Source of the DNA: a virus
DNA length: 21,488 nt
Direction: 5' to 3' (one strand)
Virus record (IMG/VR): IMGVR_UViG_3300005613_002765
Location: 1 to 21,488 of that record
The position numbers were made by a program, and so were the translations under genes. Numbering within the stretch: the stretch's first letter is position 1; every line of letters starts with the position of its first letter. This document shows, piece by piece, positions 73-14,954 of this stretch. The notes below the pieces were generated by a model. The model did no database searches. It was given only the letters and a program-made list of their open reading frames with translations, and was not told where the DNA came from.

Positions 73-905
73 TGGCCCGGTTGTTTAATGATTCCCAATC
101 TGAGTATCTGAAAGTCGACCAGGCGGCCATTACTGCCTATCCGTTTGTGCTGCATGGCTGGTTTTATTCTGATAATCTCGTCGATTACCAGTCGATCGTT
201 TGGGTGGGCGACAAGGACGTTACCAATTCGTTTTTTTTTATCGGCTTAGCAGGCGGCGTGGCCAACGATCCGGTGAGGGCGTTTGCCTACGACTCGGGCG
301 GGGCGTACAACAATGCTTATTCCTCGACTTCGTATTTACAGAATGTATGGCAGGCGTGCACGGGGATTTTTGTGTCGGCTACCGATCTGCGCGTGTTTTT
401 GGATGGCGGCGGAAAGGGCACCGACAATAGCGGGGCCGACTCTAATCCGGCTAACAACAACAGCATGGGTATTGGGCGAAATAGCGACTCGAGTCCAAGC
501 GATTACATGTCGGGCCGCATTGCCGAAGCAGCGATCTGGGACCTGACGAACTGGCCCGGAGCAACGGCCAGCGACAAGGCCGACGAGTTCGAGCGGCTGG
601 CCTTGCCGGCATTGGCTGATCGGTATTCGCCGTTGTTTTTCCCGCTTGGCCGGGTCGACTATTGGCCGTTGGGTGGACCCTACGACGCAAACGATGGTGA
701 TCACGATATCGTCGGCGGCTACCACATGACGGATTACAACACGCCGACGACTGCGGACCACCCGCCGGGGATGATCTATCCGGCGGGGGTGATGTCGGTG
801 AAGAGCGGTGGCGCGGGACCGAGCAATTACCTTCTTCCATCACTTCAGGCGATCAACCTGATGGGCGGCAAAGGGCTCAAGCACGTTGGAAAGCAGATTG
901 CATGA
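72..905 (+). CDS. LamG/concanavalin A-like virion or appendage protein
   Basis: This 277-residue protein starts at the ATG overlapping the preceding stop (TGATG), with GAGG at 58-61 as a possible ribosome-binding site. An upstream in-frame ATG at 45 would overlap the preceding gene and is less likely. The N-terminal start MARLFNDSQSEYLKV, the strand pattern through about residue 165, the RVFLDGGGKGTDN segment and GRIAEAAIWDLTNW are typical of LamG-type jelly-roll domains in environmental phages. These domains usually bind glycans or form part of tail appendages. The C-terminal third (YWPLGG, then GGYHMTDYN and ADHPPG) is the usual ending of this subfamily. It overlaps the next gene by four bases. 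The fold is fairly secure; the exact role (fibre, spike or decoration) is not. Confidence 0.65.
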   Translation: MARLFNDSQSEYLKVDQAAITAYPFVLHGWFYSDNLVDYQSIVWVGDKDVTNSFFFIGLAGGVANDPVRAFAYDSGGAYNNAYSSTSYLQNVWQACTGIFVSATDLRVFLDGGGKGTDNSGADSNPANNNSMGIGRNSDSSPSDYMSGRIAEAAIWDLTNWPGATASDKADEFERLALPALADRYSPLFFPLGRVDYWPLGGPYDANDGDHDIVGGYHMTDYNTPTTADHPPGMIYPAGVMSVKSGGAGPSNYLLPSLQAINLMGGKGLKHVGKQIA

Positions 906-1882
906 GAATCGCACACACGGCAATTGTGACTCCACACCGGGCCGGACTGTACGAGACGGCACGTGACCTGTGCGCAGCCGAGCGCAAGGCTGGCGTGGAT
1001 GCACGGATTATCGACCCGCAGGCGATTGACGAGGATCGGGGCGTCCCCGTGGGCCAGTCGTTCAATCCTTCCGACTACGACGTGATTATCAACCACAGTG
1101 GACTCGGCCAGCACGCAGACAAGCTCAACGGCACGCCGGTGATTCACTGCCTGCACGGCAGGCCGGAAAGTTCGTTTCGCCTGACACAGCAGAAGCGGAC
1201 GCCAGTTTACCAGTACGTCCGCAACACGGCCGCGAATGAGTCGTTCAAGCGGTGGGTGACGTTCTGGCCGGAGACGGTGCCGTACTGGTCGCTACTCGTG
1301 CCGCCCGAGCGACTGAAGGTGATTACGGCACCTGTTGACTTGGAGGCGTGGACGCCCGAAGGACCCAGCGGCTACGGCTGGCACGGCAAGGGCGGCAAGT
1401 ACAACGTGGTCTGTGCAGACATGTGGCGGGAAGACAAGACGCCTTACCACGTGATTCACGGCTTCTGTGAATTCGCCAAGGAGGTCCCTGGCGCGAAGCT
1501 GCACCTGTACGGAGTTACCCGAGACGACGCCTTGGACGTTCTCCTGGCTCAGATTGGGCAGCAAGGCTGGCTGGGTGAGGTTCGCGGCAACGTCGATGGT
1601 TTGGAAAACGTCTACCGGGCGGCGACGATGGCGATCAGCCCGCACCGAATTGCAACGCGGAGTATTCGGGAGGCACTGAGTTGTGGGTGCCCAGTCGTGT
1701 CGGCGGCTGCCTGCGGCACAAACAGGGCAGACCCGGAAGACCCGCGGGCGTTTGGGGAGGAGATGGTAAGTGCGTGCCAGATGATGCGTGAGGTTGCGAG
1801 AGAGAAGGCGATGGCGTTCGACGCCAACACCACAGCGCGCGAGATGCTTGAAATAGTCGCGGAGGTGTGCGATGCAGGTTAA
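902..1882 (+). CDS. GT-B fold glycosyltransferase (GT4-like)
   Basis: This 326-residue protein starts at an ATGA overlap with the preceding gene. Its N-terminal half, MRIAHTAIVTPHRAGLYETA, is the Rossmann-like acceptor domain opening of GT4 enzymes. The donor domain follows from about residue 165: a KYNVVCADMWREDKTPYHVI strand-helix, then KLHLYGV, then SIREALSCGCPVVSA near residues 257-271. The last is the classic glutamate-helix-Gly-Cys-Pro-Val-Val nucleotide-sugar loop of the family. Such enzymes transfer a sugar from an NDP-sugar, retaining anomeric configuration. Length is close to a compact GT4. It lies among tail-type genes, about 4.4 kb ahead of the main sugar cassette. Donor and acceptor cannot be told from the sequence. 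Confidence 0.8.
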   Translation: MRIAHTAIVTPHRAGLYETARDLCAAERKAGVDARIIDPQAIDEDRGVPVGQSFNPSDYDVIINHSGLGQHADKLNGTPVIHCLHGRPESSFRLTQQKRTPVYQYVRNTAANESFKRWVTFWPETVPYWSLLVPPERLKVITAPVDLEAWTPEGPSGYGWHGKGGKYNVVCADMWREDKTPYHVIHGFCEFAKEVPGAKLHLYGVTRDDALDVLLAQIGQQGWLGEVRGNVDGLENVYRAATMAISPHRIATRSIREALSCGCPVVSAAACGTNRADPEDPRAFGEEMVSACQMMREVAREKAMAFDANTTAREMLEIVAEVCDAG

Positions 1883-4491: not shown

Positions 4492-4875
4492 ATGGATCCT
4501 CACAGAATACACCACGACCTCTATTTAGGGGACAAGACTCTCCATGACCCCGGCGACGGGGAGACGATTCGGGCGGCCAGCGACCTCGCACTCTGCGAGA
4601 TGGTCTCGGGCGCGTCGGATGAAACGCGCACGCTTGCGAACCCGACTAAGCCGGGCATTCGCTTGACGCTCCGCTTACTGACCGATGGTGGCGGCGACGT
4701 TATTGTCTATGCGGAAAACGGCTACAACGTCGACCTGGAAATCCACGCGACCTTCGCCGACGCCGGCGATTACCTCTCGCTGATTTCCGTCACCAAGACT
4801 ATTCCCACGTCATCGGCGGCGGCAACGTATCGCTGGCAGGTCCTTGACGGCAACATCGGGGTCAGCTTGGCGTAA
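4492..4875 (+). CDS. Phage structural-type protein, untailed paralogue
   Basis: The start is the ATG at 4492, preceded by AAGGAG at 4478-4483; an upstream frame extension to 4375 would overlap the previous gene. The 127-residue product aligns along its whole length with the first 120 residues of the next protein. Shared blocks include HHDLY, DPGDG, DETRTLANPTK, GIR, LTDGG, NVDLE, ATFADAGD, LSLISV and YRWQVLDG. The pattern suggests a compact beta-rich virion protein, possibly a decoration or fibre-head protein; the family has no name I can give. Unlike its paralogue it ends right after the shared domain, at GNIGVSLA. The pair arose by tandem duplication including the leader. Confidence 0.7.
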   Translation: MDPHRIHHDLYLGDKTLHDPGDGETIRAASDLALCEMVSGASDETRTLANPTKPGIRLTLRLLTDGGGDVIVYAENGYNVDLEIHATFADAGDYLSLISVTKTIPTSSAAATYRWQVLDGNIGVSLA

Positions 4876-4921: not shown

Positions 4922-5635
4922 ATGACAACTGCACTTAGAGTTCACCACGACTTGTATCGTGGCCCGAAGGTGATGACCGACCCCGGTGACGGGGGGACGA
5001 TTCGCCCGAACAAGGATCTCCAGATTTGCGAACTGACCTCCACGGGGGCGGACGAAACGCGCACGCTGGCGAACCCTACTAAGGCGGGTATTCGATTCGT
5101 GCTGCGAATGCTCACTGACGGCGGGGACATCGTTGTTACGGCGGCTAACGGTCTGAACGTGGATCTTGAAACCAGTGCCACGTTTGCCGACGCGGGAGAC
5201 ATGCTGTCTCTGATTTCCGTGTCACTGACAAGCACGACGTACCGCTGGCAGGTGCTTGACGGGCAGGTGGGGGCCGCGATTGCTACTGCCACGGCTACGG
5301 CGACGGCTACGGGGACTGCTACTTCCACGTCTACGGCTACTTCCACGTCCACCCCCTCGGCGTCCGCTACGGCTTCGCCCACAACGTCCGGCACGAAGAC
5401 CAAGACCGATACCGATACGCAAACGCAGACGATGACGATGACGGGTTCGGACACCAAGACCGATTCGCCTACGGCTACCGGCACGAAGACCAAGACGGAC
5501 ACCGGTACCGAAACCGCCACTTCGACGCAGACGGTCACGGACAGTGGTACGGCGACCTCGACCGCTACGGCGACTGCTACTTCCACGTCCACCTCGACGG
5601 CCTCGGCCACCGCCACGGCCACCGGCACGCAGTAA
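4922..5635 (+). CDS. Phage structural-type protein with C-terminal Thr/Ser-rich tail
   Basis: The start is the ATG at 4922, with a purine-rich GAAAGGGA at 4907-4914. Residues 1-120 are the same domain as the preceding gene. Residues 121-237 are almost wholly Thr, Ser and Ala, with Thr at alternate positions (ATATATATGTATSTST and similar). A central segment is rich in KTD, QT and MT pairs. Such a tail should be extended or disordered, or form a beta stalk, and offers dozens of hydroxyl groups. It stops one gene short of the sugar, methyl and sulfate transferase cassette, so it is a candidate O-glycosylation substrate; this is inference. The untailed sister gene shows the tail is an add-on. Confidence 0.7.
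   Translation: MTTALRVHHDLYRGPKVMTDPGDGGTIRPNKDLQICELTSTGADETRTLANPTKAGIRFVLRMLTDGGDIVVTAANGLNVDLETSATFADAGDMLSLISVSLTSTTYRWQVLDGQVGAAIATATATATATGTATSTSTATSTSTPSASATASPTTSGTKTKTDTDTQTQTMTMTGSDTKTDSPTATGTKTKTDTGTETATSTQTVTDSGTATSTATATATSTSTSTASATATATGTQ
5421..5475 (+). repeat. Exact 55-bp repeat, copy 1 (in Thr-rich tail)
   Basis: This is identical base for base to 6113-6167 in the next gene, in the same reading frame. It encodes the QTMTMTGSDTKTDSPTA part of the tail. Identity includes synonymous positions, so recent exchange or copying is more likely than protein-level convergence. Confidence 0.95.
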
Positions 5636-5652
5636 TATAGGAGGGTGTGACG

Positions 5653-6321
5653 ATGAGTTTCGACAAAACCCCAACCACCTGGTTGGAGAATTGGTCAGAA
5701 GATGGCACGGACATTACGGTGCCGATTGCCACCTTCCCGGAATTAAGTGCCGCCGAGGCGGACGCAGACGACGGCGACATTCGGAAAATCGTCTTTGCGA
5801 TCGTCGAAAAGCTGTACTCGCAGTTTATTGCCACCGCGGTAGCCGACCGTCCCGTGAAGTGGACGATAAGCAAAACCGCCACGGTGAATGCGGTTCGGAA
5901 CGTAATCAAAAGCCGCTACATAGTTACCGTAGAGACTGACATCGGCACGCAAGAGGTTGCCGACGAGACCACGAGTTCTTCGACCGCTACGTCTACGGCC
6001 ACGGCTACGGCCACGTCTACGGCCACGTCTACTGCTACGGGCAGTTCGACGTCCACGGCGACTGCCACAACGTCAGCTACGAGCACGACGACCAAGACCG
6101 ATACGGGCACGGAAACGCAGACGATGACGATGACGGGTTCGGACACCAAGACCGATTCGCCTACGGCCACCGGGACGACGACCAAGACCGATACCTCAAC
6201 GGCAACGGACACCAAGAGCCGAAGCGCCACCGCCACGAGCACGTCGACGGCAACGTCCACGGGAACGGCCACGTCCACGTCAACGGCGAGTTCTACGGCG
6301 ACGGCTACTGCAACCTACTAA
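5653..6321 (+). CDS. Virion-type protein with unrelated head and the same Thr/Ser-rich tail
   Basis: The start is ATG 5653, with AGGAGGG at 5639-5645 seven bases upstream; an in-frame GTG at 5647 sits too close to that site. Residues 1-105 form a distinct domain (FDKTPTTWLENWSEDGTDIT, then ATFPELSAAEADADDGDIR, IVEKLYSQFIA, RYIVTVETDIGTQEVADE). I believe this recurs in uncultured phage structural clusters, but I cannot name it. Residues 106-222 are a Thr/Ser/Ala tail of about the same length as in the previous gene, with the exact 55-bp repeat at nearly the same offset. The gene ends nine bases before the methyltransferase, so it is probably co-transcribed with the cassette. Confidence 0.7.
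   Translation: MSFDKTPTTWLENWSEDGTDITVPIATFPELSAAEADADDGDIRKIVFAIVEKLYSQFIATAVADRPVKWTISKTATVNAVRNVIKSRYIVTVETDIGTQEVADETTSSSTATSTATATATSTATSTATGSSTSTATATTSATSTTTKTDTGTETQTMTMTGSDTKTDSPTATGTTTKTDTSTATDTKSRSATATSTSTATSTGTATSTSTASSTATATATY
6113..6167 (+). repeat. Exact 55-bp repeat, copy 2 (in Thr-rich tail)
   Basis: This is the second copy of the 55-bp sequence at 5421-5475, at offset 145 within this tail against offset 139 in the first. The two tails are therefore nearly collinear. Confidence 0.95.
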
Positions 6322-6330
6322 GGAGAACCA

Positions 6331-6969
6331 ATGGAGTTTCAAGAAGCCTTGAACAAGGAATTTTCGTTCACCGGACGGCAGGGGCGGGACAATCTGCCCG
6401 CCCTTGCCTGTGCTAAAATGCACTGGGGGCCGGCAATGGATCACGGGCGGCATACGCTGGCGCGGATGCTGCGCGACATGGAGGTCCGCGAAGGCGTGGA
6501 GGTTGGCACACACAGCGGCTTCTCGGCCGAATTGTGGGCGCGGCACTGCTCGACGCTGCACTTAACGTGCGTCGATCCGTATGCCGCATACGCGGTTCGG
6601 CCTATACAAGCGGAGCACGATAAAATCTACGCTTCCGCGGTCAAGAGGCTGAAGCCGTACAATGTGGACATCATACGGGAGCGCAGCCTGGATGCCGTAG
6701 AGAGCTTTGAAGACCGTTCCTTGGACTTCGTAAACATCGACGGCAATCACGAGTTCGATTGGGTTGTGCAAGACTTGATTCACTGGGCGCCGAAGGTACG
6801 CGATGGTGGCGTGGTAATGCTGCACGACTATTGCAACTTCTGGCGTGGCGGAGTAGTTCTCGCCGTCAACGCTTACACGACCGCGCATCGCGTGGACCCG
6901 TGGTACGTGACGGGGCGACGGGACAAGACCCCGACGGCCTTCTGGGAGCGGGGAGCAGCGACACTGTGA
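6331..6969 (+). CDS. Class I SAM-dependent methyltransferase (Methyltransf_24-like)
   Basis: This 212-residue protein is preceded by AAGGAG at 6320-6325, overlapping the upstream stop. A Rossmann methyltransferase core is visible: motif I EVGTHSGFSA at residues 57-66 binds SAM, and VDPY follows at 81-84. The acidic motif IV region FVNIDGNHEFDWVVQDL is at 133-149, and GGVVMLHDY at 159-167. The D-G-N-H and H-D-Y signatures are typical of the Methyltransf_24 group, which often acts on sugars or small molecules in surface-glycan loci. Lying at the head of a glycosyltransferase/sulfotransferase cassette, it most plausibly O-methylates a sugar. The substrate is inferred. It overlaps the next gene (TGATG). 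Confidence 0.8.
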   Translation: MEFQEALNKEFSFTGRQGRDNLPALACAKMHWGPAMDHGRHTLARMLRDMEVREGVEVGTHSGFSAELWARHCSTLHLTCVDPYAAYAVRPIQAEHDKIYASAVKRLKPYNVDIIRERSLDAVESFEDRSLDFVNIDGNHEFDWVVQDLIHWAPKVRDGGVVMLHDYCNFWRGGVVLAVNAYTTAHRVDPWYVTGRRDKTPTAFWERGAATL

Positions 6970-7625
6970 TGAAAGTAGAGGTCCACACCATTCGCTATGG
7001 CTCGCCCCAATGGTTGCTGGAATGCGCACCGACGCTTGATGCGTGGACGGAGCGACACGGCTATCCGCTGAACGTATGGAGCATGAAGGACAAGAAGCCG
7101 GAATACCCGTGCCTGAAGTTCTGCGAAATTGATATGTGGCGGCAGTTTCTTCAGGGGGATTCCGACTGGTGCATGTACGTAGACGGCGACGTGTACGTGC
7201 GACACGACGCCCCCGCACTTGATTTCCTCGATGAATCGGGCTTCTATGCGCGGCGGGCGCTAAAGCAGACGAACGGCAGATTTGCGTGGTGGTGCCGAAA
7301 GTATGGCATACCAAGCGCGAGGACAGAGCGACTGAAGCGATTCTGGTGGTTTCGGAACATGGGGTGGTGGGTGGTTGATCGAGCGTCGGCGGAGAAATTG
7401 CTTCGCGTGATTACCCCGCCGTATTACGAGGCCACGCTTGAGGAGTGCCAAGCTAACTTCTGGCTGGCTGAGGCGCGGCGCAAACATGGAATGCGGACGC
7501 TTTCACCACCGCTGGGCTGGGTGAATTTCCATTGGCTCAAGCGACCTTCGTGGATGTGGCACTTGGCCCACAGTCACGGAAAGATGACAGCGCTGCGGAC
7601 GATCCAGTTGCAAGGCAAAGTATGA
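6969..7625 (+). CDS. GT-A type glycosyltransferase with DGD motif
   Basis: The start is taken at the ATG overlapping the methyltransferase stop (TGATG), giving 218 residues. Features of a metal-dependent GT-A enzyme are present. These are a KFCEIDMWRQFL helix, then WCMYVDGDVYVRHDAP with the metal-binding DGD at residues 72-74. A FRNMGWWVVDRASAEKLL strand-helix (128-145) and an acidic EECQANFWLAE helix (159-169) follow. A terminal HLAHSHGK (198-205) could supply the last metal/phosphate ligand. It resembles small enzymes related to GT8/GT32-type folds, but I cannot fix the family. Donor and acceptor are unknown. It overlaps the sulfotransferase gene (ATGA). Confidence 0.7.
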   Translation: MKVEVHTIRYGSPQWLLECAPTLDAWTERHGYPLNVWSMKDKKPEYPCLKFCEIDMWRQFLQGDSDWCMYVDGDVYVRHDAPALDFLDESGFYARRALKQTNGRFAWWCRKYGIPSARTERLKRFWWFRNMGWWVVDRASAEKLLRVITPPYYEATLEECQANFWLAEARRKHGMRTLSPPLGWVNFHWLKRPSWMWHLAHSHGKMTALRTIQLQGKV

Positions 7626-8248
7626 GCAAGTACACGATAGTGCCGGTGATTGGGCTACCGAGGGGCGGAACCAGTTGTACCGCAGGGGTGATTCACCTCC
7701 TTGGCGTGTCGATGGGGCCTCTGTTAAGGCCGCCGGACAAGGCGAATCCGCGGGGGTATTTCGAGGATGACGTACTGTTTTGGGCGACCGACCTGCGGAT
7801 GAAGTCGGACATGCGCATACGCCTGTTGAGGCGGTATGCCAACCAGCGCATGATACGGTACGGTGAAACGATGATTGGGATGAAGATAAGTCGATTTTGC
7901 TTGATGATACCCGAATTAGTGCGTGCCTTTGCGCAGCTTAAAATCGTTGTCCCAGAGCGGGACATGGAAGAGGTAATCGTGTCGCAACGCAACACGCGGA
8001 TGTGGCCCGGATGGGGGCGCAGGCGGCTGCATTCGAGAATGATTACTCACCGTGACCAGAGGGAGGCGGATATTGCGAAGTACAAGCCGGACGTACTGCG
8101 TCTGGATTACCACGATACGGTCTTGAGACCAAGGCTTGCGATCGACCGGATTATCGCCTTCCTGGGCATTACCCCGAATCAAAAGCAGATACAAGCGGCG
8201 ATGGAGTTCGTGTCCCCTGAGTTATGGCATCATGGGAGGGTGAGATGA
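7622..8248 (+). CDS. PAPS-dependent sulfotransferase-like protein
   Basis: The start at ATG 7622 overlaps the preceding stop and gives 208 residues, short but adequate for the family. The 5'-phosphosulfate-binding loop appears as GLPRGGTSCTAG at residues 11-22. NPRGYFEDD at 42-50 is a frequent signature of this sulfotransferase group. A 3'-phosphate-binding region, KIVVPERDMEEVIVSQRN (107-124), has the expected Arg and Ser. The C-terminus, VLRLDYHDTVLRP then IIAFLGI, is also typical. The enzyme would move sulfate from PAPS to a hydroxyl, most likely on a glycan given its four transferase neighbours. It overlaps the next gene (ATGA). The family call is good; the acceptor is inferred. Confidence 0.75.
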   Translation: MSKYTIVPVIGLPRGGTSCTAGVIHLLGVSMGPLLRPPDKANPRGYFEDDVLFWATDLRMKSDMRIRLLRRYANQRMIRYGETMIGMKISRFCLMIPELVRAFAQLKIVVPERDMEEVIVSQRNTRMWPGWGRRRLHSRMITHRDQREADIAKYKPDVLRLDYHDTVLRPRLAIDRIIAFLGITPNQKQIQAAMEFVSPELWHHGRVR

Positions 8249-8997
8249 GGTTATCGGTTATCGTTCCCGTGCTGAATTCCCACGAAGCGCTCCGGCGGCA
8301 GTTGTTGTTCCTGGAGAAGTCCGGGCTACCGGATGGCACGGAGTTGATTCTGGTCGACGACGGAAGCGACCCGCCGATTGAGAACACCTCGCGCCTTCCG
8401 GTGAAGATCCTCAGAACGCACGACACCCGGCCGTGGACGTGGCCTCTGGCGAGAAACCTAGCGGCAAGGGAAGCGGCGGGTGAGTATCTCTTGATGTACG
8501 ACTTGGACCACATCATCACGCGGAAGTGCATGGACTTCGTTGTGGAGCATGACGCAATACGGGTCCACTTCCTCCGCCACTTTGGCGTGATTGACGAGCA
8601 CGGCGTACTGAAGACCGACCGCCCGACGCTGGAATCTTACGGGCTTCTATTTCCGGGCAAGCGAATTGAAACCCACCACAACAGCTTTGCCATAAGGGCG
8701 GAGCTATTCTGGGAATTGGGCGGATACCGCGAAGACTTGATAGGCGAGCGCTACCCCGCCGGCGAGGACAGCCAGTTGTACGCGGCGTGGAATAAATACG
8801 CTGCGGAGCACGACACCGAATCCCTTGAGGGCCCCATTCAATATGTCTTTCCTACGGGGCGATGGTGCGGAGACGTAGATCACGACCAGTTCGGTCTCTT
8901 TCATAAGCTCAGCCGGAGGAGCGACAAGAATTTCTGGTGGCTTCAACAAAAGGAGTTCGGAGTATGCCCAACGGTTTCGCCAAGGACTTGTCGGTGA
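8245..8997 (+). CDS. GT2 family glycosyltransferase
   Basis: The start at ATG 8245 overlaps the sulfotransferase stop, with GGGAGGG at 8234-8240; the product is 250 residues. The GT2 pattern is clear: RLSVIVPVLNSHE at the N-terminus and LILVDDGSD (nucleotide binding, DDG at 38-40). PLARNLAAREAAGEYLLMYDLDHI follows, with DLDH at 86-89 as the DxD metal site. LFWELGGYREDLIG then GEDSQLY near 173-179 holds the catalytic-base region. It should be an inverting transferase using an NDP-sugar. No membrane segment is seen, so it is probably a soluble cytoplasmic enzyme. The coding end overlaps the next gene by 34 bases, with that gene's ribosome-binding site inside. Confidence 0.85.
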   Translation: MRLSVIVPVLNSHEALRRQLLFLEKSGLPDGTELILVDDGSDPPIENTSRLPVKILRTHDTRPWTWPLARNLAAREAAGEYLLMYDLDHIITRKCMDFVVEHDAIRVHFLRHFGVIDEHGVLKTDRPTLESYGLLFPGKRIETHHNSFAIRAELFWELGGYREDLIGERYPAGEDSQLYAAWNKYAAEHDTESLEGPIQYVFPTGRWCGDVDHDQFGLFHKLSRRSDKNFWWLQQKEFGVCPTVSPRTCR

Positions 8998-9923
8998 TCG
9001 TGCCGGGCCGGAACGAGATGTTCCAGGCACAGACGGTCGAGGACGTTCTGTCTCGGATCCAAGCCGATACGGAAGTGATTTGCATCCTGGACGGCGGGTG
9101 GCCGCCGATGCGCGGCGTCGAAGATCACCCCAGAGCCAAAGTCGTCAAGACCACCACCCCCATCGGGCAACGGGCCGCCACCAATCTCGGCGCGCAGATG
9201 AGCCGAGCGAAGTACGTTATGAAGCTCGACGCGCATTGCAGGCTGGACGACGGCTTCGACGTGAAGATGATGGAGGCGATGGAACCCGAATACACGATGA
9301 TTCCAGCAATGCACCGGCTGCACGCCTTCGATTGGGCTTGCAACAACTGCGGCTGGACTCAGTACCAGGGAAGCAAGCCGCAGAAGTGCGAAGAGTGCGG
9401 AGAGGACGACCTGTACATGCACTTGGTCTGGGAGCCGAAATGGAAGGTCGGCCCCACGGTATCGTGGCGATTTGACACTAACCTGAGAATGCAATACTGG
9501 CCGCGACACAAGAAGCGAAAGACGGTTCGCCGGCAGATTGAGCAGGGCCTTGTCGAGACGCCGATATGCGTGGGCTGTTGCTTTATGATGGAGAGGGAGC
9601 GGTTCCTGGAACTCGGCGGGATGGACGAGAAGCACGGCTCCTGGGGTCAGTTTGGGGCCGAGTTGGGTTTCAAGGCGTGGCTCTCCGGCGGGAAGATGGT
9701 GACGAACACGAAGACGTGGTTCGCGCACCTTTTCCGCACGGGCAACTTTTCGGTTTACGGTGAATCGACGTTCCCGTACCCGATGGGGAGCGCCCAGCAG
9801 GAAGCGGCGAGGGACTATTCCAGGGACTTTTGGATGAACGACAAGTGGCCGCTCGCAAAGCGCAAGCTCGAATGGCTGATTGATTACTTCAAACCGATGC
9901 CCGATTGGCACGAGAAGAAATAG
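8964..9923 (+). CDS. GT2 family glycosyltransferase with zinc-ribbon insertion
   Basis: The start is ATG 8964, preceded by AAAGGAG at about 8949-8955; the product is 319 residues. GT2 features are DLSVIVPGRNEM (8-19), EVICILDGGW (37-46) and AATNLGAQMSRAKYVMKLDAH (71-91), where DAH stands in for DxD. ELGGMDEKHGSWGQFGAELGFKAW (216-239) is the acceptor/base region. Between the two halves is a CNNC-x12-CEEC ribbon (Cys 126, 129, 142, 145) that probably binds zinc. Two further cysteines follow in ICVGCCF near 201-206. The ribbon may contact the acceptor protein or stabilise the insertion; this is inference. The stop overlaps a GTG start (TAGTG) of the nozzle-like gene. Confidence 0.8.
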   Translation: MPNGFAKDLSVIVPGRNEMFQAQTVEDVLSRIQADTEVICILDGGWPPMRGVEDHPRAKVVKTTTPIGQRAATNLGAQMSRAKYVMKLDAHCRLDDGFDVKMMEAMEPEYTMIPAMHRLHAFDWACNNCGWTQYQGSKPQKCEECGEDDLYMHLVWEPKWKVGPTVSWRFDTNLRMQYWPRHKKRKTVRRQIEQGLVETPICVGCCFMMERERFLELGGMDEKHGSWGQFGAELGFKAWLSGGKMVTNTKTWFAHLFRTGNFSVYGESTFPYPMGSAQQEAARDYSRDFWMNDKWPLAKRKLEWLIDYFKPMPDWHEKK

Positions 9924-11019: not shown

Positions 11020-13656
11020 ATGGCCATAACAACTATACCGGAAAACGCCCCCGACCAGAGTGAGATTGTCCTTGAGCACATGGACAATCCATTCGAGACG
11101 TATTGGTGGACGACTGCTTCTATCACGGACATTCCGCCGGATTCGGTTGGGTGGATGTTGGCTAATGGTTGGGTCGTTCAGAGCATTGATTACGACACCA
11201 GCACGACGCCGAACATTCCTTACTACAACATGACGAAGGAGAGGCTCCAGAACTGGCAAGTCCTCCTCTCGCTCCTGAATGCGTTTACTGTTGCGTACAA
11301 CGATGCTCAGGACTGCAACCAGGTCCGGTACAACGAAGTGGTCCGGGACTGGACGGAGATGCTCTCCAGCAGCCAGTCACAATTCGAGGCGCAAACCACG
11401 GAACGGAACGCGCAAAGCACGTTGATTCTGGGGAATCTGGCCACTTACATGGATGCCGTGGATACTCTGATTGACGATAACCAGACGGACCTTGCCGTAG
11501 AGGCGGACAAGGCGATTGATGCGTTGACCGAATTGAATGCCAAGCTCAGCGACCTGGAGGACAACGTCGACAGCAACACGACGACGATTGCGGAGCTCTT
11601 GACCGACCAGAGCGACTACTTGAGCGATTTCCTCACGGATTACGCGGCCAAGCTGGACGAATTGGATGACGACTATACTTCTTACTCCGGCACTGTCACC
11701 ACGCTTCTGGGTAACGCGACGACGCAGTTATCTACGTTTGTCACGGACCAGGACGCGCAACTGGCGACGTTGGAGTCGCAGCGGGCAGCGACGCGCACCG
11801 AGATAGAATCGCTGCTGGAAGGCGAGGTGAATGATTTGCTCCTTCACTTGGAGGAGTACACGGAGCAACTCACCACAACCGAGACCTACGGCGACACGAT
11901 GCGGACCAGTGTCACGGCGCTGATTGCCGACAAGACAACCGACCTGACGACCTACCTGACGGATTACGCTACTCAAATCGCTTACCTTGCCACGGATTTC
12001 GCGGCGCACAACACGGCTTCCTTGGAAGATCAGGCGGACGCGCTAACTGCACTGAACTCCCACATCGAGGACTACAACGCCCACTTAACCACCTTGGCGA
12101 GCAACTACAGCACCCATTCAGATACGCTCGATGCACTGCTGTCGACCGCGGCGGACAACACGAGCACCTTGACTTCTGGAATTGACTCCCTGTTGGCGTT
12201 GATGTTGACGGACTACGAGACAATCGACGGTGAGATAGACGACCTGGTTAGCTCCGGTTCAGATACCTTGACGACCCACGCGAGCGATTACAACACGGTT
12301 CTTGCTGCGCTGGAAACGGATTACAGTTCTCACGTAACCACCGCGACTGCGTTCCTGGATGACCTGGGCGTTACCGAGCTTGCCAGAATCAACGAAGAGT
12401 TCACGGCCAGCCTTTCCGTGCAATTGCAGTACTTGACCGACAGGGGGCTCTACTCGGCGGCGGCGGCCGTTGATTACACCGCTCGAAACGCCCGTGACCT
12501 GAGCGAGCGAATCACGGAACTGAACGACAAGCTCAACCGCGAACAATTCGAGAACCAACACCGGCTCTATGAACAGAAGGTGGCCATGCGGGCGCGTACC
12601 TTGGACGGGAAGGACCGGGTGTATTCGCTCCGGCAGGAGGTGTATCGGTATCAGGCCACCCAGATAACGGGGATGTATGCCCTGTTGCAAGAAGTGCGGA
12701 ATCGTACCCTTTCCGGGAAGCAGGCGATTCTGGCTGCGCAGGACGCCAATAGCCACTTCCAGATTGAGGTTCAATCGGCCCTCTACGCAAGGACCCAGGA
12801 AGTTCGGGTCAGGGTCATGGAAGGCGCAGATCGGGTGTACCAGCTTCGGGACGCCCTCACGCGCTGGGCCAGCGACGAACTGCATCGACTGTACGGAGAA
12901 CAACTCCAAACCCGACTCAAGGCAGCGGAAGCGGAGGACCGGAAGCACGCGGCGAAGCAGGAAGTTCGCGCCGCGAACCAAGCGATTCGGATGCAACTCC
13001 ACCAGGGGTTGTTGAGTGAAGTGCAGTTGATTCTCGGGGGACTGGACCGGGAACGCGCGGCGACTTCCGACATAGCCAAGCTGCAAGTCAGCACGAATGA
13101 GCGGCTGCTTGAGGCTATTCGGGGGGTTGTGGGCACGTTCCTGGACCGGATTGAAAAGGAGCACGGGATCTCGGTGGACGTGTGGAGGGCGGAGGCTGCC
13201 CAGCGAGACAAGATGCTTCAGCACCTCAAGGAGATCGAGACACAGCAGGCAGCGGGCATAGATCGCCAGCACGCGGCCCAGCAGGACGTTTCCAGGGCGG
13301 CCATGGCAGAACGGGATAAACTCCTCGCCCAGCTTCAGGACGCCGTGCAGGGCTTCCTGACGGGCAAGGAGCGGTATTCCAGCTTGACCCAACAGAACGC
13401 CTCGAATCTGGCCGACCACAAGCACAAGATGATCGTCGAGAAGATGAACGAAGCGGCAGCCAGGCTACAGGAGCTAAGAGGCCAACAGGCGGAAGACATG
13501 AAGCTCATGGCGTATCAGTTGGACGAGCGCAACAAACTACTTATCGGGCTGTACGGGTTCGTGGAGCGCCGCGAAGACGTAGGACCACGATTCGAGCAAC
13601 TCGCACAGGTATGTACCGCACTGGGCGATAGCGGGGGAGGCTGGATCACCCCATGA
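11020..13656 (+). CDS. Long rod-like virion protein made of two families of 36-residue repeats
   Basis: This 878-residue protein starts at ATG 11020. Residues 1-130 form an N-terminal region with YWWTTASITDIPPDSVGWML that may be the anchor. Residues 170-457 are eight tandem 36-residue units, often beginning [TES]-[DE]-Y with a second aromatic about 11 residues later. Residues 516-839 are nine more 36-residue units of another sequence, each starting LY, LL, ML or similar and often ending in K or R. The last 39 residues (LIGLYGFVERRED ... GGGWITP) look like a conserved cap. Composition is strongly helical, with almost no Cys or Pro in the repeats. It follows the nozzle-like gene, where fibre, tape-like or internal proteins are found. 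I recognise the general type from podovirus-like contigs but no named family. Confidence 0.65.
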   Translation: MAITTIPENAPDQSEIVLEHMDNPFETYWWTTASITDIPPDSVGWMLANGWVVQSIDYDTSTTPNIPYYNMTKERLQNWQVLLSLLNAFTVAYNDAQDCNQVRYNEVVRDWTEMLSSSQSQFEAQTTERNAQSTLILGNLATYMDAVDTLIDDNQTDLAVEADKAIDALTELNAKLSDLEDNVDSNTTTIAELLTDQSDYLSDFLTDYAAKLDELDDDYTSYSGTVTTLLGNATTQLSTFVTDQDAQLATLESQRAATRTEIESLLEGEVNDLLLHLEEYTEQLTTTETYGDTMRTSVTALIADKTTDLTTYLTDYATQIAYLATDFAAHNTASLEDQADALTALNSHIEDYNAHLTTLASNYSTHSDTLDALLSTAADNTSTLTSGIDSLLALMLTDYETIDGEIDDLVSSGSDTLTTHASDYNTVLAALETDYSSHVTTATAFLDDLGVTELARINEEFTASLSVQLQYLTDRGLYSAAAAVDYTARNARDLSERITELNDKLNREQFENQHRLYEQKVAMRARTLDGKDRVYSLRQEVYRYQATQITGMYALLQEVRNRTLSGKQAILAAQDANSHFQIEVQSALYARTQEVRVRVMEGADRVYQLRDALTRWASDELHRLYGEQLQTRLKAAEAEDRKHAAKQEVRAANQAIRMQLHQGLLSEVQLILGGLDRERAATSDIAKLQVSTNERLLEAIRGVVGTFLDRIEKEHGISVDVWRAEAAQRDKMLQHLKEIETQQAAGIDRQHAAQQDVSRAAMAERDKLLAQLQDAVQGFLTGKERYSSLTQQNASNLADHKHKMIVEKMNEAAARLQELRGQQAEDMKLMAYQLDERNKLLIGLYGFVERREDVGPRFEQLAQVCTALGDSGGGWITP
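11527..12390 (+). repeat. Eight tandem 108-bp (36-residue) coding repeats, Asp/Thr-rich family
   Basis: Units start at residues 170, 206, 242, 278, 314, 350, 386 and 422. Clear anchors are TDYAAKLDELDDDYTSY (206), TDYATQIAYLATDFAAH (314), EDYNAHLTTLASNYSTH (350) and SDYNTVLAALETDYSSH (422), whose spacings of 108, 36 and 72 residues are all multiples of 36. The other units are more degenerate but keep Leu near positions 7, 10 and 24-25. The DNA has diverged, so the period shows at protein level. Confidence 0.85.
12565..13536 (+). repeat. Nine tandem 108-bp (36-residue) coding repeats, Gln/Arg-rich family
   Basis: Units start every 36 residues from 516 to 804: LYEQKVAMRARTLDGKDRVY, MYALLQEVRNRTLSGKQAIL, LYARTQEVRVRVMEGADRVY, LYGEQLQTRL, LHQGLLSEVQ, LLEAIRGVVG, MLQHLKEIET, LLAQLQDAVQGFLTGKERYS and MIVEKMNEAA. 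The first three units share an [RV]xRxxxxGxxxxx core, and the last four end in RDK, RDK, KHK and RNK. No gaps are needed, and the frame closes exactly on the terminal cap at residue 840. Confidence 0.85.
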
Positions 13657-14954
13657 CGATCAGGAAGCGCAGAATGAGGGCACCCGGTTTTGGGATGCCC
13701 ACGCCTTACAATCCGTTGACGGGGCAGTACGAAACCCTTGCGCCAACGGGGCATTACCCCTATTGCGCGATGATGCAAGTGGCGGAAGACGATACGCACG
13801 AGGATTACGTGGTCTGTCGGGGTTGGGACACGCGGGTGAATCGGTTCTTCGATGCCGTTTCGGTGGCGAAACCCTACGGGAAGCGCGCCAAGTACATCTA
13901 CCGGATCGGGCAGGTGTATCCTGCCGTCCTTCCGTGGATGCGGTTGGGTGAGAATTGGGCACCAAGCCAGAATCCGGGCGTGGCGGAGACGACTCAAGGC
14001 CATCCGGCGGATCTGGATGAGGAAGTCGAGATTCTCTACGACGACGATAGCAAAGTCATCAACTGGATGCTCCTGGACTGCGGTGGTTTGCCGGAATTCT
14101 ACAACGATTCCGGGGAGGAGGTGTCAGCCTATGCCATAATGGCCGTGACCGGCGTGCAAACATTAGACAGCGGCAAGGTTGTCAAAAAGATTGGGAAGCC
14201 GAGTACGACATTGTACCGAGAGTACATAGTCAACAGCAGCTTGGCAGTTGCCGATGAATCTGTTGGCCTCTATCAACTTGGCCCGGAAATTCAAGTCGCT
14301 TATACTGGCGGCACCCCGGCCGCCGGGAAGGGCTGGGGGCCGCAGCCGGATGCGTGGACTGTGTCGGCGGATTACCCGGAAACGTGCATGATCGAAGGGA
14401 CGGTAGACGCCGATAGCAAGATAGCGAAAGCGCAAATCCATACGTTAGATCGAGTTCCGTTTCAACTAAAAACTTCTCTGACACCCGGCGGTGGAGCTAC
14501 GGCGTATGTAGCCACATCCGATGGCACAATCATCGACGACTCTACGCCTTGGACTGTAACAGTACAAGACACGGTCGGTGGTAAACGCGCCATTGGAAAA
14601 GATGATCGGGCTGCTGGCGGTGGCGTTGGGCTAGCCGAATATCTAGCGAATGGCACACTGGCGATAACGTACGTGCGACCAATGGCAAAGCGCTGTTCAT
14701 GTTTGATAGACGCTGGGGCCGGGATAGATGATGCCGATGCAAGCGTGAATGTAGACAACGTAACGCCCATTGATGGCGGCATGATTAAAGACTCCGACAA
14801 CGATGACATTACGGTCTACATTCAACGCAACGTGCAGAGCACCGGCGGATACAAAGCTGCTGACAATACGGTAATGCAGATCGAATGGAATGAGAGCGAG
14901 GACAAGTGGTACATTTACGACGGCCCATGTCACCCGGATTGTAGATGCACATAA
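13653..14954 (+). CDS. Putative virion protein with planctomycete-phage-like beta domain
   Basis: This 433-residue protein starts at an ATGA overlap with the rod gene; GGGGGAGG at 13633-13640 lies 12 bases upstream. The N-terminus is basic (MTIRKRRMRAPGFGMPTPYN). The middle is beta-rich, and the segment around residues 265-345 (RVPFQLKTSLTPGGGATAYV, then TPWTVTVQDTVGGKRAIG and VGLAEYLANGTLAITYV) looks like a repeated beta module. I associate such modules with proteins from planctomycete genomes and phages. It ends with cysteines (KRCSCL, then CHPDCRCT). No signal peptide or membrane helix is seen. It could be a tail fibre or adhesin-like virion protein. The function is unknown and the host link is an inference. 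Confidence 0.5.
   Translation: MTIRKRRMRAPGFGMPTPYNPLTGQYETLAPTGHYPYCAMMQVAEDDTHEDYVVCRGWDTRVNRFFDAVSVAKPYGKRAKYIYRIGQVYPAVLPWMRLGENWAPSQNPGVAETTQGHPADLDEEVEILYDDDSKVINWMLLDCGGLPEFYNDSGEEVSAYAIMAVTGVQTLDSGKVVKKIGKPSTTLYREYIVNSSLAVADESVGLYQLGPEIQVAYTGGTPAAGKGWGPQPDAWTVSADYPETCMIEGTVDADSKIAKAQIHTLDRVPFQLKTSLTPGGGATAYVATSDGTIIDDSTPWTVTVQDTVGGKRAIGKDDRAAGGGVGLAEYLANGTLAITYVRPMAKRCSCLIDAGAGIDDADASVNVDNVTPIDGGMIKDSDNDDITVYIQRNVQSTGGYKAADNTVMQIEWNESEDKWYIYDGPCHPDCRCT

Follow-up and report, generated by a model that had tools for sequence, protein, structure and literature searches.

Virion glycosylation is known in mycobacteriophages, and Freeman et al. (2023) reportedly carried out a study of it. 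In two reports, Che8, Corndog and Myrna are described as having glycosylated virions and phage-encoded glycosyltransferases, with the glycans located on the capsid and the tail tube (PMC12363180, PMC12619734). In Gram-positive bacteria, the loci of serine-rich repeat adhesins (Fap1-type) encode a Ser/Thr (S/T) repeat acceptor beside a dedicated glycosyltransferase cluster, and O-glycosylation proceeds stepwise, a dedicated Gtf1/Gtf2 pair initiating and other glycosyltransferases including dGT1 extending the chain (PMC5207161). In animals and apicomplexans, the polypeptide N-acetylgalactosaminyltransferases (GalNAc-transferases) of family GT27 act on mucins, whose S/T-rich tracts are their substrates. 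Here we describe a locus of an uncultured phage in the complete IMG/VR record IMGVR_UViG_3300005613_002765 (21,488 bases, probably a genome fragment, referred to below as the window), in which two proteins with Thr/Ser-rich tails are followed by a cassette of putative glycan-modifying enzymes. The anatomy of the locus, the co-occurrence of its parts in related contigs, distant homology and predicted folds suggest, with a probability of roughly 0.7, that it encodes a phage system for the O-glycosylation of mucin-like virion tails. Its parts are the following.

4922..5635, + strand: tailed protein 1, a spike/fibre-like N-terminal domain (to about 5278) and an alternating Thr/Ser/Ala tail (5279-5632)
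5647..6321, + strand: tailed protein 2, a different N-terminal domain and an alternating Thr/Ser tail (about 5968-6318)
6331..6969, + strand: S-adenosylmethionine methyltransferase (MT; PF13578, E 1.8e-20)
6969..7625, + strand: putative glycosyltransferase with a DGD motif (the DxD protein; no family match)
7622..8248, + strand: probable sulfotransferase (Sulfotransfer_3, E 2.4e-4, below cut-off; P-loop GLPRGGTS)
8245..8997, + strand: GT2a, family 2 glycosyltransferase (PF00535, E 3.1e-9)
8964..9923, + strand: GT2b, resembling polypeptide GalNAc-transferases (GT27) in profile and fold, with a zinc-ribbon insert (PF00535, E 2e-9); proposed tail glycosyltransferase

An S/T-repeat acceptor next to a glycosyltransferase cluster, the arrangement of the serine-rich repeat adhesin loci, is found in the window, and stepwise O-glycosylation is likewise proposed for the phage locus; the adhesins would be its nearest functional analogue in bacteria. 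The acceptors are secreted adhesins in those systems, whereas here they would be phage virion proteins, accompanied by a GT27-like enzyme and by putative methyl and sulfate transferases. The stop codon of tail 2 (6319-6321) and the ATG of the MT gene (6331) are separated by 9 bases, the cassette genes after the MT start overlap through TGATG/ATGA, and GT2a and GT2b overlap by 34 bp. The coordinates of the open reading frames (ORFs) thus agree with the sequence-only reading of this DNA, which had placed a cassette with overlapping stop and start codons nine bases after the tails.

That reading had also described two adjacent virion-type proteins with alternating Thr/Ser/Ala tails of about 117 residues, and the tails themselves were borne out. 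Tail 1 consists of 118 residues (51 Thr, 20 Ala, 17 Ser) and tail 2 of 117 (54 Thr, 23 Ser, 19 Ala). In the alternate-position register the S/T share was 98% in tail 1 and 100% in tail 2, and Thr at both i and i+2 was counted 42 times per tail, exceeding the means (21.5 and 24.2) and the maxima (31 and 34) of 5000 shuffles. Simple tandem-repeat expansion was ruled out as the sole origin of the tails: arrays span only parts of them, and the Thr codons of tail 1 (ACG, then ACC) follow the preference of the other genes, so that tail 1 is ordinary coding sequence and not only a microsatellite. An exact DNA block is common to the two tails. The AlphaFold2 model of the N-terminal domain of tailed protein 1 (pLDDT 88.8) best matched the phage tailspike TSP4, the Pa223 capsid spike and T4 gp9/gp10 in the PDB, with modest TM scores of 0.5-0.6, and a comparison with PHROGs gave no match. 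Its predicted fold is like that of phage tailspike, baseplate and capsid-spike domains, and the tails are therefore probably exposed on the virion surface. The virion-type label is supported in this way for tailed protein 1; for tailed protein 2 we infer it.

The comparison with GT27 centres on GT2b. A profile of the GT2b family matched polypeptide GalNAc-transferases (ppGalNAc-T) best among solved proteins (E 1.2e-13 to ppGalNAc-T1), and all of the top 50 PDB neighbours found by Foldseek with the AlphaFold2 model of GT2b (pLDDT 82, pTM 0.85) were ppGalNAc-T (E 3e-17, TM 0.54-0.68 by query). Residues D89, H91 and H255, found in every one of 69 sequences, align with the metal site of GALNT1, in which a DxH motif and a distal His (Asp209, His211 and His344) have been described (PMC4202792). 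GT2b therefore appears to share with GT27 the profile, the GT-A fold and the DxH and distal His ligands, and it keeps the Trp-Gly and the Glu of the WGGENxE region as well as the His-x-Phe-Arg motif; S/T-rich tracts, the substrates of GT27, are its proposed acceptors. It differs from GT27 in being soluble and phage-encoded, in the loss of the GEN of WGGEN (WG and the following E are retained, GEN is replaced by QxG), in the missing ricin-type lectin domain (the protein of 319 aa stops after the catalytic domain and gave no lectin match), and in a CxxC...CxxC rubredoxin-like zinc ribbon inserted at residues 126-145 (window 9339-9398), which is present in nearly all relatives. Because of the absent lectin domain, the insert and the altered WGGEN, GT2b is named GT27-like and not assigned as a GT27 member, the kinship being a remote homology suggested by sequence and predicted fold. 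A limited literature search found no reports of GT27-like phage enzymes.

A direct search with GT2b gave ten viral relatives, and a profile scan found 328 viral stretches with a GT2b relative. Under a strict alternation criterion, a protein with an alternating S/T tract was present in 59 of 68 non-redundant viral GT2b loci as compared to 1 of 120 random viral loci picked through an arbitrary 14-mer (Fisher p 7e-38), the GT2b loci being longer on average (16.4 vs 8.8 kb). The strict criterion was adopted because a looser composition criterion was positive in 16 of the 120 controls, nearly all of them Arg-rich or out-of-frame ORFs; by the looser criterion a tract lay within 4 kb of GT2b in 48 of the 68 loci. 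In the reverse direction, the search began with a DNA pattern for SPSASPSAS, which also matched many frames that are not Ser-rich, and only contigs with genuine tracts were kept: GT2b was present in 15 of these 24 records (14 strong, one at E 8e-9) and in 0 of 47 random ones (p 1e-9). The co-occurrence check in related contigs proposed by the sequence-only reading was thus passed in both directions. The median gap between the nearest tailed gene and the nearest enzyme gene was 10 bp, with 40 of 57 within 200 bp, against a null of about 2.1 kb.

What these loci have in common is the tract, since the 127 tailed proteins fell into about 82 groups whose backbones are unrelated. Orthologs of the tail 1 domain carry non-homologous tails which always alternate in S/T (TATAT in the closest relative, L012; SPSSSPS in L018-L028), and a homolog of the N-terminal domain of tailed protein 2 in L018 (56% identity) bears an SPS-type tail. 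In most loci with the tail 1 domain a tail-less paralog precedes the tailed one, as in the window. When loci were collected by this backbone, all S/T-tailed relatives had cassette enzymes nearby, and no cassette enzymes were found in the stretch examined around five untailed relatives (L375, L377-L380). One backbone occurs both with and without an S/T tract: the window protein 13653-14954 is untailed, and its homologs in L016 (15605-16600) and L013 (11232-12524) have an SPSSSPS tail and an SSPSSP stretch, respectively. It could be argued that tract and enzymes travel together merely by shared ancestry within one phage lineage, without functional link, and head genes are indeed common to the window-like loci; this is very unlikely, since most GT2b loci have no detectable structural genes in common with the window, the backbones are unrelated, and orthologous domains exchange their tails for non-homologous ones that still alternate.

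The gene content of the relatives bears on which enzymes belong to the system. Homologs of the MT were found in 54 of the 68 GT2b loci (1 of 120 controls), homologs of GT2a in 42 (0 of 120), and a protein family without Pfam match, fam1, in 58 (0 of 120). Fam1 is probably an undescribed glycosyltransferase family; its members usually start with MxDLTxxYYT (e.g. L065 6692-7411), and an AEDD motif is present in that of L002. The tightly linked core in the relatives is GT2b with the methyltransferase and other glycosyltransferases. Further enzymes found in relatives are UDP-galactopyranose mutase, UDP-sugar dehydrogenase, DegT aminotransferase, epimerases, FdtA and RmlD. The five enzymes did not hold together as the unit proposed by the sequence-only reading: L012, whose GT2b is 80% identical, has only the tail-less/tailed pair, MT, GT2a and GT2b, with no DxD or sulfotransferase gene between MT and GT2a, and the sulfotransferases in other loci (6 of 68, 0 of 120 controls) belong to PF03567, a family other than that of the window. 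Judging from L012, the window has probably gained the DxD protein, the sulfotransferase and tail 2 as accessory parts, or L012 has lost them.

Fam1 also matters for the question of which enzyme adds the first sugar. The tails might be glycosylated with fam1, the DxD protein or a GT4-type enzyme initiating and GT2b merely extending, since fam1 is nearly as frequent as GT2b even in loci selected for GT2b, the serine-rich repeat systems start with Gtf1/Gtf2 before dGT1 and others act (PMC5207161), and the GT2b-family profile also matches the GT2-type bacterial GalT1 (5hea) with E 5e-7. We regard this as doubtful, because GT2b finds its top matches, in sequence as in structure, among enzymes that act on polypeptides, and because the window lacks fam1, which was also not detected in the examined part of L012.

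Among the enzymes other than GT2b, the assignments of MT and GT2a are, like that of GT2b to family 2, secure as far as sequence comparison goes, and these names of the sequence-only reading stand. Its sulfotransferase reached 21.9 bits with Sulfotransfer_3, below the Pfam cut-off of 27, with a P-loop-like GLPRGGTS and RDMEEVIVS present, and its DxD glycosyltransferase had no match in Pfam, NCBIfam or the PDB, so that this label rests on the DGD motif. The same reading took glycan methylation and sulfation by a phage-encoded pathway to be undescribed. For methylation, a precedent exists as gene content in the three-gene cluster of Che8, where gp108 (L350 3172-4347), annotated as a glycosyltransferase only, is a fusion of GT2 with a second, PF13578 methyltransferase domain. 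In mycobacteriophages, phage-encoded glycosyltransferases act on virion proteins, as they would in the proposed system. The mycobacteriophages differ in having neither GT2b-related enzymes nor alternating S/T tracts beside these genes: comparison of gp108, gp109 and gp110 with the GT2b family by hhalign gave probabilities of 24%, 0.2% and 0.3%, with no detectable kinship, and no alternating S/T tract was found near the glycosylation genes of Che8 and its relatives. What is known of virion glycosylation in mycobacteriophages involves neither such acceptors nor GT2b.

Three further genes of the window, the first of which shares a gene string with the cassette, are needed to place it.

902..1882, + strand: GT4-type glycosyltransferase (PF13692, E 1.2e-6)
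4492..4875, + strand: tail-less paralog of the tail 1 N-terminal domain, by alignment; the order of the pair is repeated in L012, L018, L019, L022, L026 and L028
9905..11017, + strand: head-closure (Hc3)-like protein (phrog_578, E 3.8e-5)

With the head-closure-like gene next to it, the cassette sits within a structural module. This position bears on the alternative that the cassette acts on the glycans of the host surface, for receptor or serotype conversion or superinfection exclusion, with the S/T tails as unrelated flexible linkers. Phage glycosyltransferases commonly do so (reviewed in PMC12619734), some contigs have GT2b without S/T tracts, and the UDP-galactopyranose mutase and UDP-sugar dehydrogenase of some relatives could serve surface polysaccharides. 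Such a role is nevertheless unlikely in view of the structural module, the two-way association of tract and enzymes on about 82 unrelated backbones with a near-zero gene gap, and the GT27-like enzyme; moreover, the cassette enzymes have no strongly hydrophobic segment, and no flippase or polymerase was recognised in the window. Hypermodification of the phage DNA with glycans is hardly credible: virus-encoded DNA-modifying glycosyltransferases exist, as cited in PMC12619734, but the window has no recognised base-modification genes, the matches of GT2b are enzymes that act on polypeptides, and the link to the S/T tails would be left unexplained.

Several observations weigh against an O-glycosylation system for the tails. 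At least five contigs of 112.6, 64, 42, 27.6 and 25.7 kb (L083, of 112.6 kb, and L070, L017, L064 and L010) carry GT2b with no alternating S/T protein in the DNA examined, the kind of relative that the sequence-only reading had named as contradicting it, here as a minority. In these contigs, either GT2b takes less regular Ser/Thr sites or the acceptors are encoded elsewhere. Seeding on GT2b inflates its apparent centrality, and the untailed backbone relatives are also the most distant, so phylogeny confounds the backbone test. GT2b is without the ricin-lectin domain and the full WGGEN, and its homology leaves donor and acceptor unfixed. Both the sulfotransferase and the DxD protein are weakly assigned and without relatives in the collected loci; a search for viral relatives of the DxD protein was also empty. 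The link between tract and enzymes is accordingly strong but not absolute, and the proposal that the cassette decorates the tails gains from the two-way co-occurrence and from the kinship of GT2b to GalNAc-transferases.

In the O-glycosylation system that we favour, the acceptors would be the C-terminal tails of spike/fibre-type virion proteins, with Thr or Ser at almost every other position, and soluble cytosolic enzymes encoded directly downstream would glycosylate them before or during assembly. GT2b, proposed as initiator because of its relation to the mucin-initiating polypeptide GalNAc-transferases, probably attaches the first sugar to Thr/Ser; the chain may then be extended by GT2a and the DxD protein and capped by the methyltransferase, and in the window phage the probable sulfotransferase may add sulfate. 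Acceptor, order of action, donor sugars and sulfate are all inferred. The virion would thereby acquire mucin-like brushes, stiff and hydrated, and a role of such brushes in adhesion, shielding or stability is a conjecture. More tentatively, and with slightly less than even odds in our judgement, a large and diverse group of uncultured phages may possess its own mucin-type O-glycosylation, with GT27-like initiation on virion tails, extension, methylation and sometimes sulfation, and a common ancestry of the viral family and the mucin-initiating enzymes of animals is possible. If so, phages would produce mucin-like glycoproteins in the bacterial cytoplasm with enzymes of a family whose other known members come from animals and protists, and the widespread and so far unexplained SPSASPS and TATATAT tails of environmental phage proteins would be accounted for. 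It would also offer a small set of genes with which dense O-glycans, possibly methylated and sulfated, could be made in bacteria, and point to ways in which virions adhere to surfaces or gain shielding.

Outside viral contigs, about 85,000 genomes of bacteria and archaea yielded GT2b relatives at 15 loci, almost all of them metagenome-assembled, and searches with GT2b, the head-closure protein and the GT2b of L044 found nothing in 50,697 cultured-phage records. GT27-like genes, often beside S/T tracts, were also seen in contigs from metagenome assemblies that carry the labels Patescibacteria, Planctomycetota and Myxococcales (L207-L220); these contigs may be viral or prophage, hinting at hosts. 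In the L083 contig (G079), the GT2b copy at 1521-2444 on the minus strand runs through one TAA, which could be a frameshift, a pseudogene or a stop-codon reassignment. The GT4-type protein of the window is a possible extra member of the pathway, and a search of viral contigs found no relative of it. The structural genes of the window, all on the + strand, comprise a LamG-type protein, the Hc3-like protein and a long right-end protein with a weak virion match. The window protein 1872-2888 contains repeated SDLSxKVDSDSLLY and SDVKSELVxxSDA segments.

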